Part shown: positions 2 to 10,520 of the stretch, in pieces
Position numbering within the stretch: the stretch's first letter is position 1
Layout: each line of letters opens with the position of its first letter
Notes under the pieces: generated by a model
Databases searched by the model: none
What the model saw: only the letters and a program-made list of their open reading frames with translations
Told to the model about the DNA's origin: nothing
Source: Bacteroidales bacterium
Lineage (GTDB): Bacteria > Bacteroidota > Bacteroidia > Bacteroidales > UBA932
Length of the DNA: 11,392 nt
Assembly: GCA_017383945.1 (NCBI GenBank)
Contig: JAFNUQ010000072.1
Span: forward strand, 1 to 11,392
Reading direction: 5' to 3'
Position numbers and translations under genes: made by a program

Positions 2-142
2 AGCAGAGACAGTGCCGTCGGTAGAGCCGTTATCCACCACAAGCACATCGCATGGGTGCGAAGAGGCCTCAAGACTTGAGAAGCACTTCTGCAACCACGG
101 CATCGCATTATATGTAACGACGACTACAAGGACTCTAGGCAT
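2..142 (-). CDS. GT2 family glycosyltransferase, N-terminal fragment (runs off the window)
   Basis: The first 47 residues of a family 2 glycosyltransferase (GT-A fold, nucleotide-sugar dependent), cut by the left edge of the window. It begins MPRVLVVVVTYNAMPWL, the hydrophobic first strand and TYN motif of GT2 enzymes, and reaches VVDNGSTDGT at residues 36-45, the nucleotide-binding segment typical of the family. The ATG at 142-140 overlaps the stop of the upstream GT2 gene by eight bases, so the two are translationally coupled and probably act on the same glycan. Sugar donor and acceptor cannot be told from the fragment. The enzyme would be cytoplasmic or on the inner membrane face. The family call is firm; anything finer is not. 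Confidence 0.9.
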   Translation of the reverse strand, partial: MPRVLVVVVTYNAMPWLQKCFSSLEASSHPCDVLVVDNGSTDGTVSA

Positions 143-1103
143 TGCGCAAACGATTATAATACTTGATAAACAATTGCTTAGGGCTGCGACAAGAAAGAAC
201 GGCAGCGCAGATGTGTGCAAATGTCTGCAGCTTGATTTTGTTTTCTTCGCTTCGCGCGAATGTATACCTCAGCGCAGCTTTGGCACATTTGAGTGCTTCG
301 GCAGCAAAAACACCGGCAGCTAGCAGCAGATACTTCAAGCATTTGCCTTCGCTGAAGAAAATCAATGAACCACGGACAGCCGCAGGACGCACAGCAGTGG
401 AAATTTTTGTCGCTGTCGTGCGCCAGAGGTGCACTATGGTCGCATCAGCATCCACATAGAGCTCATATCCTCTCTTGCGGGCGAGAGTCGAGAGTGCAAG
501 GTCCTCAGGGGTGAAGAAATACCTCTCGTCAAAGAAACCCAGCTCCTTGAAGACATCTGTCTTGATCAAAAAGGCAGCGCCTGTTATGTTATATGTCTGA
601 TAGACCTGATCAAAAAGCGGCGTGAGACCTTCTATATTGTTGATGGGCTCCTTATAGCAATGCCACTGCTGAAGGAAATACTTGCGTGCAGGATAGACGG
701 GACGACCGCACAACTGAAGACTGCCATCAGCGTTGAGAAGCTTAGGGGAAACTATTGCTGTGTGTTCAGGAAGTCTCTCAATATCAGCAACTAAACGTGC
801 AATAGTATCTTCTGTCATCAAAGTGTCATCGTTGAGCACAAAGCAGTATTTTCCTATTGCCTGACGCAGTGCAAGATTATTGTTTTCTGAAAAGCCGCGG
901 ACTTCGTTGCTCTCAATAAATTTTACCCAAGGATAATCCTGACGGGCCTTGGCCAGGTTTTCCTTTGAGAACAGATAGGCTACGACCAGAGTCTCCTGCG
1001 GCACAGAGCAATGCTTGCTGATGCCATCCAGACAAGGATATAGGTTATCCAGCCTGTTCATACAGACTATCACTATACTCACTATTGGACCCTGTGTTGA
1101 CAT
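135..1103 (-). CDS. GT2 family glycosyltransferase (rhamnosyltransferase-like)
   Basis: A 322-residue family 2 glycosyltransferase. The N-terminal strand is VSIVIVCMNRLDNLYPCL; RGFSENNNLALRQA lies at residues 69-82; the metal/nucleotide motif is FVLNDDT near 88-94, an NDD variant of DxD; and FDERYFFTPEDLAL around 191-204 carries the ED pair where the family places its catalytic base, followed by a VH at 224-225. This pattern resembles WbbL/rhamnosyltransferase-type GT2 enzymes, but the sugar is not proven. A short hydrophobic stretch near 256-270 may let it sit on the membrane. I chose the ATG at 1103; an in-frame TTG four codons upstream (1115) would give a longer form and is less likely. 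It lies 27 bases after rimM, behind a terminator, and overlaps the next GT2 gene by eight bases. Probable role: surface polysaccharide assembly. Confidence 0.9.
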   Translation of the reverse strand: MSTQGPIVSIVIVCMNRLDNLYPCLDGISKHCSVPQETLVVAYLFSKENLAKARQDYPWVKFIESNEVRGFSENNNLALRQAIGKYCFVLNDDTLMTEDTIARLVADIERLPEHTAIVSPKLLNADGSLQLCGRPVYPARKYFLQQWHCYKEPINNIEGLTPLFDQVYQTYNITGAAFLIKTDVFKELGFFDERYFFTPEDLALSTLARKRGYELYVDADATIVHLWRTTATKISTAVRPAAVRGSLIFFSEGKCLKYLLLAAGVFAAEALKCAKAALRYTFARSEENKIKLQTFAHICAAVLSCRSPKQLFIKYYNRLRNA

Positions 1104-1120
1104 AATTGAGTGCAAGATAC

Positions 1121-2180: not shown

Positions 2181-2211
2181 CAAAGGTAAGCAAAAATTAT
2201 TTATGCTGCAA
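2181..2211 (-). promoter_or_regulatory. Bacteroidota-type promoter for rpsP-rimM
   Basis: On the minus strand the -7 element is TACCTTTG (2188-2181), a full match to TAnnTTTG, followed by CACCCC. A TTGC element (2211-2208) lies 19 bases upstream, the spacing expected of the -33 box of the Bacteroidota primary sigma factor, although it differs from TTTG. The -33 box lies inside the 3' end of the upstream DUF616 gene. Transcription should begin around 2173-2177. Confidence 0.8.
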
Positions 2212-2871
2212 GTATTTGAGTCCCGGATGGTTGCGACTGCTCTGCCCCGGAGGGAGAAGGTAGTCGCGCTGCACGCCACAGCGCCTCAGACACCACATAA
2301 AACTGATCTGGTCGCGACGGCAGAAGTTGTTAATGCGCTCCCACCAAAGCTCGTCCAGAGCAATAATTTCAGGCCTGTTGTGACGACGGAAGATAATATT
2401 GTTCTCCATCAAGCCCTTGTGCTGCCTCTCTCCGTGGAGGAAAAGCCATATCCAGACTTTCAACAAGGCAAAATCTGAGATATATTTCATATCGCGGCAC
2501 TTGCGTGCTTCGGCATAGACACAGTCGCGAGTAGGGTGTGCAACGCCGCTATAGCCCACACCGGCACATTGCTTGGTGTGCAAGGCCTTATATATGCTAG
2601 CATCTGTGATTGCTATATTTCCGTCTATCCAGAGACTGACTTCATATTGGGGAAGCAGAACATGAGGATGTGTCTTGGGATAGCGCGAGAGCAACTGAGG
2701 GTCTGCAATATCTACATCCAGTTCCCTGATCTGCCAGGCTCCATCCTGCTCACAATGCTTCTCTCCCTTACCCACAAAGCAGATAAAGTCCACATCGGGA
2801 GCCACTACCGCAGGCTGCTGCAGCTTGTCGTAGGCTCCGATTATACAAGTATATATCGCTATCCTCTCCAT
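2197..2871 (-). CDS. TOD1/MUCI70 (DUF616) family glycosyltransferase-like protein
   Basis: A 224-residue protein matching the TOD1/MUCI70 glycosyltransferase-like family (formerly DUF616). Motifs in order: IYTCIIGAYDKL (6-17), DVDFICFV (26-33), a YPKTHPHVLLPQYEVSLWIDGN block (64-85) whose WIDGN is the family hallmark and probable metal/nucleotide site, AHPTRDCVYAEA (111-122), ENNIIFRRH (156-164) and RRDQISFMW (185-193). No signal peptide is seen, so it is probably cytoplasmic. In bacteria such genes often sit in capsule or O-antigen loci; plant members affect pectin, but the bacterial reaction is not established. Its start overlaps the end of the flippase/ATP-grasp gene by 13 bases, and the rpsP promoter lies across its 3' end. 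The family call is strong; donor sugar and acceptor are unknown. Confidence 0.85.
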   Translation of the reverse strand: MERIAIYTCIIGAYDKLQQPAVVAPDVDFICFVGKGEKHCEQDGAWQIRELDVDIADPQLLSRYPKTHPHVLLPQYEVSLWIDGNIAITDASIYKALHTKQCAGVGYSGVAHPTRDCVYAEARKCRDMKYISDFALLKVWIWLFLHGERQHKGLMENNIIFRRHNRPEIIALDELWWERINNFCRRDQISFMWCLRRCGVQRDYLLPPGQSSRNHPGLKYLQHK

Positions 2872-5210
2872 TTTCTCTCTGGCAATTTAATAAGGCTGCC
2901 CATCCACTCGTCTGCACTTTCCGGATCAAAAGGAACAAAGCCGCTCCAATGATAGAAAGTATATTCTCCAAAATATATCTGACCTCCCACTTCATAGAAA
3001 TCCATCCTCACGTGAGGAATGCCTTCCGAGAGCTTTGCCGCAAGGGCTTTCATCTCCTCAAATTGCTGCGGCTTGTCCGGGGTGACAGCGGCATTTGGAT
3101 GCCCGTTGCGGATATCCAGATGGCGATACTGCATATCAAAGAAATCAAATTTTGTCTCTTCAGCTGCCGCTCGCTGCGTCGCTACAAACATCACTTCAGG
3201 CTTGCCGTCAAAGCAGAAGAATTTGTAATCGTTTATCTCGCCTTGAAGCAGAGGTTCAACGATAATGCGTGGGGTGACAGACTTGTATACCCATTCGCGC
3301 ATGCGCTTATAAAAATCTCGTTTCAGCGCCGCATTGAGCTGCACTGCGGCTGCCTGCTTGTCAAAAGCAGCCTTATCATAGCAGATAATTGTGCTTCCGC
3401 TATCGTGAGTGCACTTGAGCACAAAGCTCTGTGGCAGACTGTTCCAATCGATTTCTTCCGCCTTGCTCCAGACTCCAAGAGTCGGAATAACATACTGCTC
3501 TCCTATCTTTTCTGCAACCAGACGCTTCGCCTCAACTTTGTCTACCAGCTTGTGATATAGCGGGTTACGATCATAAAGCTTGAGCCATTGGAGCTTCTCG
3601 TTATATGTCTTAGGGTGCTTCAGGTCAAGAGGCTTGCCCATCGAGCGGACAAACTGAGCCTCCAAGAACAAGCGATCCGGCATCTGGCGAAGAGGCTTGC
3701 GCAGCAGCCATGCTCTCTCTCCCGGAGTGAGGGCAATTGCAAATGTCGCCACAGCCATAGAACCCCAGGCACTGACGCAGACGAGCAGCAAGCGCAGCCA
3801 GCCTTGTGGCACAAGCAGATAGCATAGCAGCGGAAGTATATATGAAAGCGCCGTCACGAGCAGAAGCTTACCCATCACGCTTCGCATAAATTTATCAATC
3901 GGGAAGCCGGTATCTCTGCTCACAAGCACGAGTTTCTGCACAAAAACCAGCAGGTATATGCTGATAAGCACTATATAAGCCCAGACGGGCGAAGCTCCAA
4001 GCTTGTAAGAGAGCCACACACAAGGCACAACAAGCAATGAAGTCAGACCTGTAACGAGATAATATCGCTTCACGTCTCCTGTGGCCAGCTTGAGGGTGAG
4101 CAGGCTGTTTCCGGTCATACCTATCAGCAGCGACACCAGCGTGAGCACGGCAAAATCGCTTGCCTGGTCAGGAAGCGGACCAAGCCACAGAGAGAGTATC
4201 GTTTCCGCCTCAAAACTCAGCGGAATCAGGAACATCATCACCACGAGGTATGAAAACTTTGCTCCTTTGCGCACGAGTTCAAAGCAGTATTCTTTATTTC
4301 CGGCAGCCCAACTCTTGGTGATCTGAGGATTAAGGGCGGTCAGGAAGTTGGAGACAAACTGCTTTACGATATTTTCCACCTGCGCCGCAACGCCTCTTGC
4401 CGCATTGAGCACAACTCCGAAGAAACTATTTATGATGAGTTCAACGCCCTGATTGTTAAGGACGTAGGCACTAGCTCCAAGCGAAGACCATCCGGCAAAC
4501 CCACTCATTTCCTTAATGAGCGAAGGGTCAAACACCAGACGTCCTCGGCTCTCCTCGAAATGATGGCGGCAGTATGTACCATAACTCAAGCGCACGATGA
4601 GCGCAACCGCAAGCATAAGGAATGCATAAGTTGCTAGCTTGTCGTAGCTCGACAGGAGAAGAAGCACGGCAACCGTGAGCTTCAGAACTGCTTCGCCGAT
4701 GCTTATATAGGCAAATGCCGACATCTTCTCGTGGGCCACGATAGCCGCATTGTATGGAACCGACAAGAGATTGATAATCAGCACTCCCAACGAGCAATGA
4801 AGCACTGTGCGGGCGACCTCCAGACGACCTTCCGGCAGCTCCATGCGGTTATTGAGCCACCACATGCCGACTGTTTCAATCAAGACAGCGAGGATCGCGG
4901 CAAAAATGAGCTGGATTATGACTCCCGTGGAGAAGATTCTGCGAAGCTTGGATTTATCTCCCCTCTCCAACTCAAACGCCAGATAGCGGCTGATCGCATT
5001 GGATATGGATGTTGTAATGAATGTAAAGACAGTCACAACTCCACCCACGGCATTATAGACGCCATAATCGGTGATACCGAGGGTTCTGATCACCACGCGA
5101 TAGGTAAAGAGTCCTATCACCATCATCAGAAGCATACGGAAATACAGCAGGAGAGTGTTCTTTGCTATCCTTCTGCTATTTGCCGAGATATGACTTCCGT
5201 TTTGCGACAT
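2859..5210 (-). CDS. Polysaccharide flippase (MOP/Wzx-like) fused to a TupA-like ATP-grasp domain
   Basis: One 783-residue frame joining two proteins normally encoded apart. Residues about 15-495 form a multi-pass membrane protein of the MOP superfamily, Wzx/oligosaccharide-flippase type: it opens RRIAKNTLLLYFRMLLMM, includes RTLGITDYGVYNAVGG, VPYNAAIVAHEKM and NPQITKSWAAG, and has around a dozen or more hydrophobic segments. From about 510 comes a cytosolic TupA-like ATP-grasp domain: HPKTYNEKLQWLKLYDRNPLYHKLVDK-type start (532-558), FVLKCTHDSGS (596-606, ATP-binding Lys599), IIVEPLL (649-655), DYKFFCFDGKP (661-671) and RMDFYEV...IYFGEYTFYHWSG (735-757, likely Mg-binding acidic residues). 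The linker is only about 15 residues. Flippases move lipid-linked glycans across the inner membrane; TupA-like ATP-grasp proteins occur in glycan loci and probably form an amide or similar bond. The start lies two bases after ispE; the end overlaps the DUF616 gene. Confidence 0.9.
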   Translation of the reverse strand: MSQNGSHISANSRRIAKNTLLLYFRMLLMMVIGLFTYRVVIRTLGITDYGVYNAVGGVVTVFTFITTSISNAISRYLAFELERGDKSKLRRIFSTGVIIQLIFAAILAVLIETVGMWWLNNRMELPEGRLEVARTVLHCSLGVLIINLLSVPYNAAIVAHEKMSAFAYISIGEAVLKLTVAVLLLLSSYDKLATYAFLMLAVALIVRLSYGTYCRHHFEESRGRLVFDPSLIKEMSGFAGWSSLGASAYVLNNQGVELIINSFFGVVLNAARGVAAQVENIVKQFVSNFLTALNPQITKSWAAGNKEYCFELVRKGAKFSYLVVMMFLIPLSFEAETILSLWLGPLPDQASDFAVLTLVSLLIGMTGNSLLTLKLATGDVKRYYLVTGLTSLLVVPCVWLSYKLGASPVWAYIVLISIYLLVFVQKLVLVSRDTGFPIDKFMRSVMGKLLLVTALSYILPLLCYLLVPQGWLRLLLVCVSAWGSMAVATFAIALTPGERAWLLRKPLRQMPDRLFLEAQFVRSMGKPLDLKHPKTYNEKLQWLKLYDRNPLYHKLVDKVEAKRLVAEKIGEQYVIPTLGVWSKAEEIDWNSLPQSFVLKCTHDSGSTIICYDKAAFDKQAAAVQLNAALKRDFYKRMREWVYKSVTPRIIVEPLLQGEINDYKFFCFDGKPEVMFVATQRAAAEETKFDFFDMQYRHLDIRNGHPNAAVTPDKPQQFEEMKALAAKLSEGIPHVRMDFYEVGGQIYFGEYTFYHWSGFVPFDPESADEWMGSLIKLPERKWRG

Positions 5211-5212
5211 TA

Positions 5213-5983
5213 CTATTTTTCAAAGATTCCAAACACAGCGGAGCCGGAGCCTGACATACTCGCATAAACAGCACCCTGCTCATAGAAATCTGCTTTAAGT
5301 GCAGCGATTTCAGGATATAAAGGGAATACCGAATCTTCAAAATCGTTGACCAACTCTTCCTTCCACTGCTCAATCGGAAGCTCAAGAACCCCTCTCAGAG
5401 CTGCTCTTGCCGACTCTCTTCGATCTCTTGGAATCACGCCAGAGTAGGCCTCCTTGGTGCTGACTTTTACACCTCGTGGAGTTTCTACTCGGATTTCATA
5501 ATTGCTCAGGTCAATCGGGTAATCTCTGAGCACCTCGCCCCTGCCCTCTCCCAACATAGGACGATTGTAGATAAAGAACGCACAATCTGAGCCTAATCGG
5601 GCAGCATACTGTGCAAGGGTCTCATCAGATAGTTTAAGTTCATACAACTCATTGAGGGCCTTCAGGGTAAATGCCGCATCGGCAGAACCGCTTCCAAGTC
5701 CAGCACCTACAGGGGTGCGCTTGGTCAGGCGAATATGAGTCTTTGGAATGCTAAAATCAGTTTCTATGAGCTTGAGGGCACGGAAAGAAAGATCCGTTGC
5801 CGGGTCCCAATCTCCTCCTATCAGTTCAATGCTACTCTCCGGCCTGCTAGATGGAAGCACTTCCAGCTCGTCACTTAGCCCAAAATAGGGCACAAAGAGT
5901 GTCTCCAGATCGTGAAATCCGTCCGGACGTTTCCTCAGTATGCTCAGACCGAGGTTGATTTTAACATTTGGATATAGAAGCAT
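5213..5983 (-). CDS. ispE: 4-diphosphocytidyl-2-C-methyl-D-erythritol kinase IspE
   Basis: IspE, the GHMP-family kinase that phosphorylates the 2-hydroxyl of CDP-methylerythritol in the MEP route to isoprenoids. At 256 residues it is slightly shorter than the usual 280 or so. The N-terminal NVKINLGL (6-13) has catalytic-type Lys8; RPDGFHDLETLF (19-30) is the substrate motif; PVGAGLGSGSADAA (91-104) is the ATP-binding glycine loop; GSDCAFF (131-137) holds the likely catalytic Asp133; SMSGSGSAVFG (242-252) is the third GHMP motif. The true start is the ATG at 5983, which shares one base with the sufD stop (TAATG); the open frame extends to 6154, but that part lies inside sufD in another frame and does not look like a protein. 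It ends two bases before the flippase start. Its product step precedes the Fe-S enzymes IspG and IspH. Confidence 0.96.
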   Translation of the reverse strand: MLLYPNVKINLGLSILRKRPDGFHDLETLFVPYFGLSDELEVLPSSRPESSIELIGGDWDPATDLSFRALKLIETDFSIPKTHIRLTKRTPVGAGLGSGSADAAFTLKALNELYELKLSDETLAQYAARLGSDCAFFIYNRPMLGEGRGEVLRDYPIDLSNYEIRVETPRGVKVSTKEAYSGVIPRDRRESARAALRGVLELPIEQWKEELVNDFEDSVFPLYPEIAALKADFYEQGAVYASMSGSGSAVFGIFEK

Positions 5984-6576
5984 TATAGTGTTGCGTAAAT
6001 TTCTTCTTTTATCTCTTCGCTGAGGTGCTCTATCACCGGTGCAAGGAATGCAATCTTCTGGAAGCGCTCCGCATCCTCTTTGGCTACGCCTCGCGAACGC
6101 ATATAGAACAGCTGCTGAGCATTGAGTGCGCCCGAAGTGGCACCGTGGGTACACTGCACGTCATCGGCATAAATCTCCAGCTGCGGTCTGCTTTCCATCT
6201 GGGCATCCTTGCTGAGCAGAAGCGAATGCACCTGCTGGAATGCGGCTGTCTTCTGTGCATCCTGCGCCACATAGATAAGTCCTTCAAAGTTGACTTTTGC
6301 TTTGCCGCCGACAATACCCTTGAAGAGCTGGTTGCTGCTGGCGTGAGGACTTTGATGCTGCATTTGCACATTGATATTCAATCTCTCCTCTCCAGTGCAG
6401 ACAAACACTCCCTTAATCTCCGCATTTGCCTCAGGGCCAAGTAGTTGAATGTGTAAATCCACATCGGCACTCACGCCCGGAAGAGCTACAAGACTCAGCG
6501 AGATACTCTGTGATGCTTCCACACAGATGCTTGAAGGGACCTCGTCGCGACCTATGATGTATATCTTATTATCCAT
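5983..6576 (-). CDS. sufD: SufD, much shortened (C-terminal half of the family only)
   Basis: A SufB/SufD-core protein of only 197 residues, where SufD is normally about 420-450. What remains matches the C-terminal half: NQLFKGIVGGKAKVNFEGLI (82-101), VAQDAQKTAAFQQVHSLLLS (103-122), PQLEIYADDVQCTHGATSGA (131-150) and QLFYMRSRGV (155-164), then a helical tail that in the family contacts SufC. His144 in CTHGAT aligns by motif with E. coli SufD His360, needed for cluster assembly at the SufB-SufD interface. The N-terminal helical domain and much of the beta-helix are absent. The frame is open with no internal stop. I chose the ATG at 6576, overlapping sufC by eight bases; a TTG at 6588 is the alternative. 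The stop overlaps the ispE start. Position after sufC supports the call. Confidence 0.85.
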   Translation of the reverse strand: MDNKIYIIGRDEVPSSICVEASQSISLSLVALPGVSADVDLHIQLLGPEANAEIKGVFVCTGEERLNINVQMQHQSPHASSNQLFKGIVGGKAKVNFEGLIYVAQDAQKTAAFQQVHSLLLSKDAQMESRPQLEIYADDVQCTHGATSGALNAQQLFYMRSRGVAKEDAERFQKIAFLAPVIEHLSEEIKEEIYATL

Positions 6577-9476: not shown

Positions 9477-10520
9477 ATGAAAAAAACAAACAGCATTTTC
9501 AAATCAGCATTGATTGCACTTTCTTTGTGCATCGTGGCTAGTGCTTGTGCACCGAAGGAAAACCAGCTCCCTACAACCAAAAAGGGCATTATGGACGCAT
9601 TTGTAGCCGGCACTCTTCCTGAGAGTTATGCCCCTGCAGCATTTTTCGTGCACTTTGCAAACAATCAGAAAGTCGGTATGCCGGCTGTCAATGCTCACCT
9701 TCAGTTCCTCCTCAAAACCAATGCCGACATCCTCAAAGTTCAGTTTGAGCAGAGAGTTCAGCGCGTTACAGACGATCTTGACAAGCAGGAGACTTGGGAC
9801 AACATCGGCCCAATCCCTGTAGATTTCTACCGCCCAACCGTGGAGATCATCAAGAATATCAACGAGATTGCAGGTAAGGATGTTTATGTTGCTCCTACCG
9901 TTTACTCTGCATACCAGGTAGCTCGTCAGGCACTCGGTGATGAGAACATCGCTAAAGCAGCCGCTGAGCGTCCAGAGGATCTCAAGAGAGTTCTCGGTTA
10001 CTATCTCGAGGCCCTTGAGTGGTATGTTCAGGAGTTGAAGAACATCGGCATCGAGAGTTTCTATATGACAACTCAGGGTGGCGAGATGAAATACAACTCA
10101 ATCCCTGGTTTCTACAGCGATATCATCAAGCCTTTTGACCTCAAACTCATGAACCAGTGCCAGGAAGGTGCTAAGCTCACTCTTCTCCACATCTGCGACT
10201 GGGAAGGCACATATGATGACCTTACAAGATATCTTGATTACCCTGGCGATATCGTAAATGTTCCTCTTGCACTCAACGGCACTCCTGTGACTTTGAGCGA
10301 TGCAGAAGAGCTCTTTGGTCGTCCGGTTCTCGGTGGCTTTGACAGAAAGGGTCATGTCATCAACAAGGGTAGCGTAGAGGAAGTTGCTGCTGTAGTCAAG
10401 GAAGCTATCGCCAACGGACCTAAGGGTCGCGTGATGATTGGCGCTGACTGCACCGTTTCAGACGCTCCTATCAAGAATATCCACGCTGCCGTAGCTGCAG
10501 CTCACAATTCGGGAGAATAA
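9477..10520 (+). CDS. Uroporphyrinogen decarboxylase/MtaA-superfamily protein with a lipoprotein signal
   Basis: A 347-residue protein of the URO-D superfamily (uroporphyrinogen decarboxylases and cobalamin-linked methyltransferases such as MtaA and CmuA). Residues 1-24 form a lipoprotein signal: MKK, a hydrophobic core IFKSALIALSLCIVA, and ASAC with Cys24 as the lipidation site. The body shows WDNIGPIPVDFYRPTVEII (107-125), LLHICDWEGTY (236-246) and MIGADCTVSDAP (320-331). His238, Cys240 and Cys325 reproduce the His-X-Cys...Cys zinc site of MtaA-type methyltransferases, suggesting methyl transfer rather than porphyrinogen decarboxylation. No corrinoid protein is visible nearby. If the signal is used, the enzyme sits in the periplasm or outer membrane, which is odd; Met39 is an alternative start that would make it cytoplasmic. 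Codon choice resembles rpsP, suggesting high expression. A WYL regulator follows nine bases later. Substrate unknown. Confidence 0.85.
   Translation: MKKTNSIFKSALIALSLCIVASACAPKENQLPTTKKGIMDAFVAGTLPESYAPAAFFVHFANNQKVGMPAVNAHLQFLLKTNADILKVQFEQRVQRVTDDLDKQETWDNIGPIPVDFYRPTVEIIKNINEIAGKDVYVAPTVYSAYQVARQALGDENIAKAAAERPEDLKRVLGYYLEALEWYVQELKNIGIESFYMTTQGGEMKYNSIPGFYSDIIKPFDLKLMNQCQEGAKLTLLHICDWEGTYDDLTRYLDYPGDIVNVPLALNGTPVTLSDAEELFGRPVLGGFDRKGHVINKGSVEEVAAVVKEAIANGPKGRVMIGADCTVSDAPIKNIHAAVAAAHNSGE

Follow-up and report, generated by a model that had tools for sequence, protein, structure and literature searches.

A MOP/Wzx-type flippase and a TupA-like ATP-grasp ligase are encoded as a single protein in a draft Bacteroidales genome. 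This fusion is real and recurrent, and in the samples taken it is confined to one large genus. The window analyzed here is an entire contig of 11,392 bases, from a draft genome of 1.49 Mb that comprises 252 contigs and is 81% complete. Its relevant features are as follows.

2859..5210, minus strand: flippase-TupA fusion gene, 783 aa (frame, Pfam and 49 other fusions in the genus)
3711..5210, minus strand: MOP/Wzx-type flippase part, residues 1-500, with 14 predicted membrane helices (model and Pfam)
3624..3731, minus strand: junction, residues 494-529 (AF2 helices and junction comparison)
2862..3692, minus strand: TupA-like ATP-grasp domain, residues 507-783 (Pfam)
2197..2871, minus strand: TOD1/MUCI70-like (PF04765) glycosyltransferase-like gene (Pfam, E 1.7e-10)
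135..1115, minus strand: GT2 glycosyltransferase (Pfam PF00535, E 2e-11)
5213..6154, minus strand: ispE frame (TIGR00154, over cut-off; family match from near residue 60)

Architecture of the fusion protein

The frame at 2859-5210 on the minus strand has 783 codons and a single stop, which is terminal. A preliminary description of this DNA had given the uninterrupted frame exactly, without its strand, and had proposed that a complete flippase and a complete TupA-like ATP-grasp domain share one chain. Pfam and the predicted fold bear this out. At E 0.001, the only Pfam families detected in the protein are MatE and ATPgrasp_TupA.

The flippase half (about residues 1-500) is modeled with the MurJ/WzxE fold and 14 helices, within the range of 12-14 used to define MOP proteins. 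Its MatE match spans residues 24-182 (E 2.5e-7; 30.9 bits, cut-off 24.9), and no NCBIfam model matched this half at E 0.001. MurJ and WzxE are MOP flippases of lipid-linked glycans that are not known to have an ATP-grasp domain, and they are 9-15% identical to the window flippase. The window flippase presumably also moves a lipid-linked glycan, the connection to glycans coming only from the neighboring transferase genes.

The ligase half matches the ATPgrasp_TupA model (PF14305) over its full length (model positions 1-241 of 241) at residues 538-775, with E 6.8e-61 and 206.3 bits against a cut-off of 25. PMC2824669 describes ATP-grasp ligases as conserving lysines in their first module and, close to the last strands, residues that are acidic or polar. 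The window domain has the ATP-grasp fold with conserved lysines and with acidic residues in the last strands, so the ligase motifs are intact, as had been claimed. Twelve residues (D557, K558, K599, E639, E652, D661, Y662, K663, R735, D737, E749 and T751) are invariant in all 50 fusions described below. Because these key residues never vary, the sequences suggest that the enzyme half has been kept active in every lineage.

The two halves are not separated by a long linker. The junction consists of the end of the last membrane helix, an invariant E498 and two short helices predicted by AF2 at residues 496-508 and 512-524. The spacing between the last helix and the ligase motif is characteristic of the lineage (44-45, 47, 49 and 60, 51, 53, or 54-55 residues), and such lengths fit an origin by separate junctions. 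An internal start at M510 that would yield a separate ligase is not favored, because most fusions have a different residue at this position in the junction listing. A positive-inside count over the 14 modeled helices predicts that the ligase domain is on the cytosolic side. The model therefore supports the cytosolic placement that had been proposed for the ATP-grasp domain.

Neither the whole protein nor a profile of either half retrieved a relative from the PDB by sequence search; the one match had E 0.12. A search of the open-access literature found no flippase-TupA fusion, although a 2009 survey of ATP-grasp proteins may describe one.

Distribution of the fusion

The TupA domain (PF14305) was detected in 115 of 400 sampled genomes of the genus. 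In 50 of these 115, including that of the window, it lies within a frame of 606-868 aa. The N-terminal half of this frame is a flippase in every case: 48 are recognized by a profile of the window flippase, and two (G022 and G185) by Pfam Polysacc_synt_3. The best NCBIfam scores of the G022 N-terminal half are to MOP flippase and TuaB models, below their cut-offs. Three fusions (G258, G225 and G015) are cut on their N-terminal side by contig ends. The two-domain architecture, which the preliminary description had suggested seeking elsewhere, is thus present in 49 further genomes. A separate search of 61 genomes of relatives found other fusions in G008, G015, G022, G027 and G034, all of the same genus.

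Broader samples contain TupA matches in 34 of 393 genomes of the order, 26 of 149 of the family and 36 of 395 of the phylum. Frames longer than 600 aa with a TupA match are restricted to that of the window in the order and family samples. In the phylum sample, they are that of the window, a 1195-aa TupA-GT4 protein discussed below, and a 2407-aa frame in G892 whose TupA match is below the cut-off. These three samples overlap, and coverage outside the phylum consists of one pattern scan. A whole-protein search of 296 genomes of the phylum gave no second match covering both halves.

TupA-like domains also occur at 28 loci (L166-L193) of a viral collection, several of them on contigs of 200-670 kb that represent either large phages or viruses, or mis-sorted contigs. 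The same collection yielded no relative of the flippase. A stand-alone TupA gene in a draft labeled Clostridia (L033:5866-6846) is 55% identical to the window domain and groups with a copy from Paludibacteraceae, reflecting either transfer or mis-binning.

Gene neighborhood

The stop codon of ispE is 2 nt before the fusion ATG on the same strand, and past ispE lie sufD, sufC, pnuC and sufB. Downstream, the TOD1/MUCI70-like gene overlaps the 3' end of the fusion by 13 bp and is followed by rpsP, rimM (below the NCBIfam cut-off) and the GT2 glycosyltransferase. The gene is not part of a large capsule or O-antigen cluster, the kind of locus in which the preliminary description placed such genes normally. 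The locus is instead a small glycan cassette, in which a handful of transferase genes accompany the fusion amid housekeeping genes (ispE/suf and rpsP/rimM).

The arrangement with suf genes upstream and TOD1, rpsP and rimM downstream is found at 14 other fusion loci. In profile searches, a TOD1-like homologue lies downstream of the fusion, in the same orientation, at 41 of the 50 loci; the nine without an adjoining TOD1-like gene include both Polysacc_synt_3-type fusions.

The window is one draft contig among 252, and its architecture might in principle be an assembly chimera or a frameshift artifact. However, such fusions exist in 49 other genomes, the order sufB-pnuC-sufC-sufD-fusion-TOD1-rpsP-rimM recurs at the 14 loci, and both GC and GC3 are even through the junction between the flippase and TupA. 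An artifact is therefore very improbable, and we reject it for the architecture on the basis of recurrence in the genus and shared gene order.

Two other features of these regions were observed. Upstream of the fusion, a segment of about 940 bp is inverted between G173 and G088 (L103 and L089), with 83% identity and flanks of about 89-94%. Self-comparison there found no inverted repeats flanking the fusion 5' end, and an invertible DNA switch is not claimed. At 9477-10520 on the plus strand of the window, a frame matches MtaA/CmuA-type methyltransferase models far below their cut-offs; its N-terminus looks like a lipoprotein signal, which is odd for an enzyme of this type.

Unfused, ligase-less and otherwise fused relatives

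Forty loci with stand-alone TupA genes were sampled from the genus, and G020 (L116) was considered in addition. A flippase gene on the same strand abuts TupA at ten of the 40. The flippase precedes TupA at L201, L204, L218, L223, L224, L225 and L229, as it does in G020, and the order is reversed at L208, L212 and L215. At L116, L218, L223, L225 and L229, the flippase stop and a candidate TupA ATG share an overlap of 4 bp, and at L201 and L204 one that is slightly longer; L224 has a gap instead. At six of the 40 loci, the next gene after TupA in the same orientation is TOD1-like. Relatives thus also carry the flippase, the ligase and the TOD1/MUCI70-type transferase as separate, abutting genes.

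The preliminary description had named relatives with two separate genes, split near residue 500, as evidence that would refute the fusion. Such split genes do exist, but given the 50 fused genomes their existence does not indicate an error. The two forms side by side imply repeated fusion and/or fission of an operon.

Searching 220 genomes of the genus with the flippase half gave matches in at least 155 (E up to 1e-20). The flippases of G104 and G132 are 61% identical to that of the window, in frames of 523 and 519 aa, and G224 has a window-type flippase broken by a stop. No TupA domain was detected in G104, G132 or G224, which belong to the 400-genome PF14305 sample and are drafts of 78%, 81% and 95% completeness, respectively. 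In all three, a TOD1-like gene directly follows the flippase. Because unfused operons exist and these three genomes lack TupA, it appears from the sequences that neither a single chain nor a ligase is needed for the flippase. A homologous flippase gene in Phocaeicola sartorii (L035:1654-3296) is spread over two frames, and is either a pseudogene or a sequencing error.

Beyond the known TupA fusions, the matches listed with more than 600 aa are in G009, G166 and G034. The G009 frame (662 aa) is extended on its N-terminal side, and the fetched G166 frame (602 aa) has no TupA match. G034 carries a TupA fusion and also a second protein of 804 aa (L237:1833-4244, minus strand), in which a window-like flippase (profile E 1.1e-172) leads into a polysaccharide pyruvyl transferase domain (PF04230, E 4.6e-15) and TupA is not detected. 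This protein resembles the window fusion in joining a flippase to a tail enzyme, but the enzyme is a pyruvyl transferase instead of an ATP-grasp ligase. It is the only such fusion among the matches listed.

Repeated fusion and/or fission, and replacement of the ligase

A TupA tree built with a quick method comprises 129 rows, after removal of five on long branches and of near-identical ones. The fused label needs 11 changes on it, of which well-supported branches force eight. Shuffled labels give about 40 changes. A quick tree of 103 rows that includes the five long-branched rows has 10 changes, five of them forced, and a flippase tree without the two Polysacc_synt_3-type fusions has six, four of them forced. 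These changes may be fusions or fissions. The unfused pair at L229 nests inside a fused clade and is perhaps a fission. L063 (G199), counted as unfused, is probably a cut fusion, because its TupA gene starts at a contig end and the window-type flippase of G199 ends near another contig end.

The fusion could be functionally neutral, such that translationally coupled operon genes merely lost an intervening stop and start and the ligase, still acting on the glycan that the flippase exports, gained only equal dosage. The presence in this genus of unfused pairs that overlap by 4 bp, the number of label changes on the TupA tree, the variation of junction sequence and length among lineages, and the flippases without any ligase are consistent with this explanation. 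However, large clades of the TupA tree consist entirely or nearly entirely of fusions, related TupA domains are also fused to another flippase subfamily (Polysacc_synt_3), and a pyruvyl transferase has once been fused in place of TupA. These observations fit selection for fusion, without proving it, and we consider neutrality rather unlikely.

The ligases attached to one flippase clade, which comprises 19 fusions, belong to two deep TupA clades. Within it, the ligase type changes four times on the tree (three to four in bootstraps, two forced by well-supported branches), which is about the same as the mean of 4.6 for shuffled labels. A single clade for the type II ligase is rejected (p-AU 4.6e-9).

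The fusions of G173 and G088 are 93% identical in their flippase residues and 37% identical in their ligase residues. Measured per 60 bases, the DNA of the flippase part is 78-100% identical, in most steps at least 88%, and that of frame bases 1621 to 2520 is 33-72% identical. Right past the stop, identity returns mostly to 88-100%, apart from a later step at 54%. Dissimilarity also marks the initial 180 bases of the frame, which lie at or before the likely start. Blastn aligns the two loci at 92.9% over 1,472 bp and, farther downstream, at 94.0% over 4,639 bp; the interval separating these stretches gave no alignment. G360 and G241 have the same pattern in a less sharp form. The ligase has thus been replaced several times as a precise cassette, with the flippase and the downstream gene left in place. 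Comparison of the loci indicates that the flippase and TOD1-like transferase form a constant core to which the ligase is an added module. It occurs as a coupled gene of its own, as a domain within the fusion or as another type, and it may be missing altogether.

Proposed function

We propose, with moderate confidence, that the fusion is a membrane-tethered ligase-flippase for one surface glycan, whose enzyme decorates a lipid-linked glycan at the cytosolic face before export. Export to the periplasm would be the task of the N-terminal MOP flippase, acting on a glycan that is linked to a lipid, presumably undecaprenyl. Before flipping, the C-terminal TupA-like domain at the cytosolic face would use ATP to form an amide or similar acyl bond on the glycan, most likely between a carboxylate and an amine or amino acid. 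The adjacent TOD1/MUCI70-type and GT2 transferases would help build the same glycan. In view of the gene partnership and the fusion, a shared glycan pathway for flippase, ligase and transferase is likely. We infer the substrates, the bond, the ancestral state and any effect of proximity in improving or gating export.

A UDP-sugar dehydrogenase (PF03721, over cut-off) was detected in 27 of 50 fused genomes and in 20 of 30 TupA-less genomes, the latter not a random draw. None was found in the 81% complete genome of the window. Because of its presence in only 27 of the fused genomes and this absence, a glucuronate acceptor does not appear to be general, and a uronate acceptor is an unproven candidate. 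Some other carboxylate may serve as the acceptor, or else the domain may couple an amino acid, which it would activate, to an amino sugar.

Alternatively, the ligase might act on a soluble or nucleotide-linked precursor, or charge an amino donor, and simply be parked at the membrane beside a flippase whose lipid-linked substrate is unrelated. The dehydrogenase is not enriched in fused genomes, and the flippase and transferase persist where the ligase is of another type or lacking, as this would allow. Yet flippase, TupA and TOD1-like genes adjoin even when unfused, and a TOD1-like gene follows in most fused loci. We regard a parked ligase as improbable.

Under the ligase-flippase proposal, it is possible that modification is coupled to flipping. 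The preliminary description had suggested that modification could be coupled to export. The persistence of unfused pairs, the ligase swaps on near-identical flippases and the three TupA-less relatives argue against strict coupling. The swapped and ligase-less forms likewise speak against strict recognition of the decoration by the flippase.

More tentatively, the flippase tail may be a mount for exchangeable decoration enzymes, which repeated fusion would bring to the cytosolic mouth, where glycans would be modified as they are loaded. Replacement of the domain would then re-type the surface glycan while leaving its backbone and export unaltered. At least two deep types of ATP-grasp ligase and one pyruvyl transferase are seen at the tail, which in some relatives bears no enzyme, and the swapped and ligase-less forms make this idea more likely.

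Relation to known systems

TupA, the namesake of PF14305, functions in teichuronopeptide synthesis in Bacillus and is encoded by a stand-alone gene. It belongs to the same family as the window ligase domain, which is fused. A long TupA chain with a glycan enzyme exists in a different family of the phylum, where a 1195-aa protein (L236:1974-5558, minus strand, G1242) combines TupA and GT4-type glycosyltransferase domains. Unlike in the window, its TupA domain is N-terminal and its partner is a glycosyltransferase.

The nearest studied relative found for the ligase domain is Cj1438C. PMC11800379 presents Cj1438 of C. jejuni as a GT2 transferase and a TupA-like ATP-grasp amidoligase in one chain, and states that Cj1438C amidates the glucuronic acid carboxylate with serinol-P or ethanolamine-P in the Campylobacter capsule. 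As there described, Cj1438 is like the window fusion in having a C-terminal TupA-like domain chained to a glycan-handling partner; the partner is a glycosyltransferase rather than a membrane flippase, and the likeness lies in the described architecture.

In MprF, one protein synthesizes and translocates aminoacyl phospholipids, according to PMC8131360. Both MprF and the window fusion place an enzyme and a flippase in one chain with the enzyme cytosolic, a placement that is predicted for the window protein. The MprF substrate is a phospholipid, whereas the presumed substrate of the window fusion is a lipid-linked glycan. The domains of MprF are not known to be of the MOP flippase and ATP-grasp kinds, and no MprF domain was detected in the window fusion (Pfam, E 0.001). 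By analogy, the fusion may work like MprF, without being a member of the MprF family.

To our knowledge, it is an open question how bacteria restrict flipping to finished glycan units. Fused, unfused, swapped and absent ligases around near-constant flippases provide natural experiments on whether flippases sense decoration. They also suggest that these bacteria have diversified their surface chemistry by exchanging one enzyme domain.
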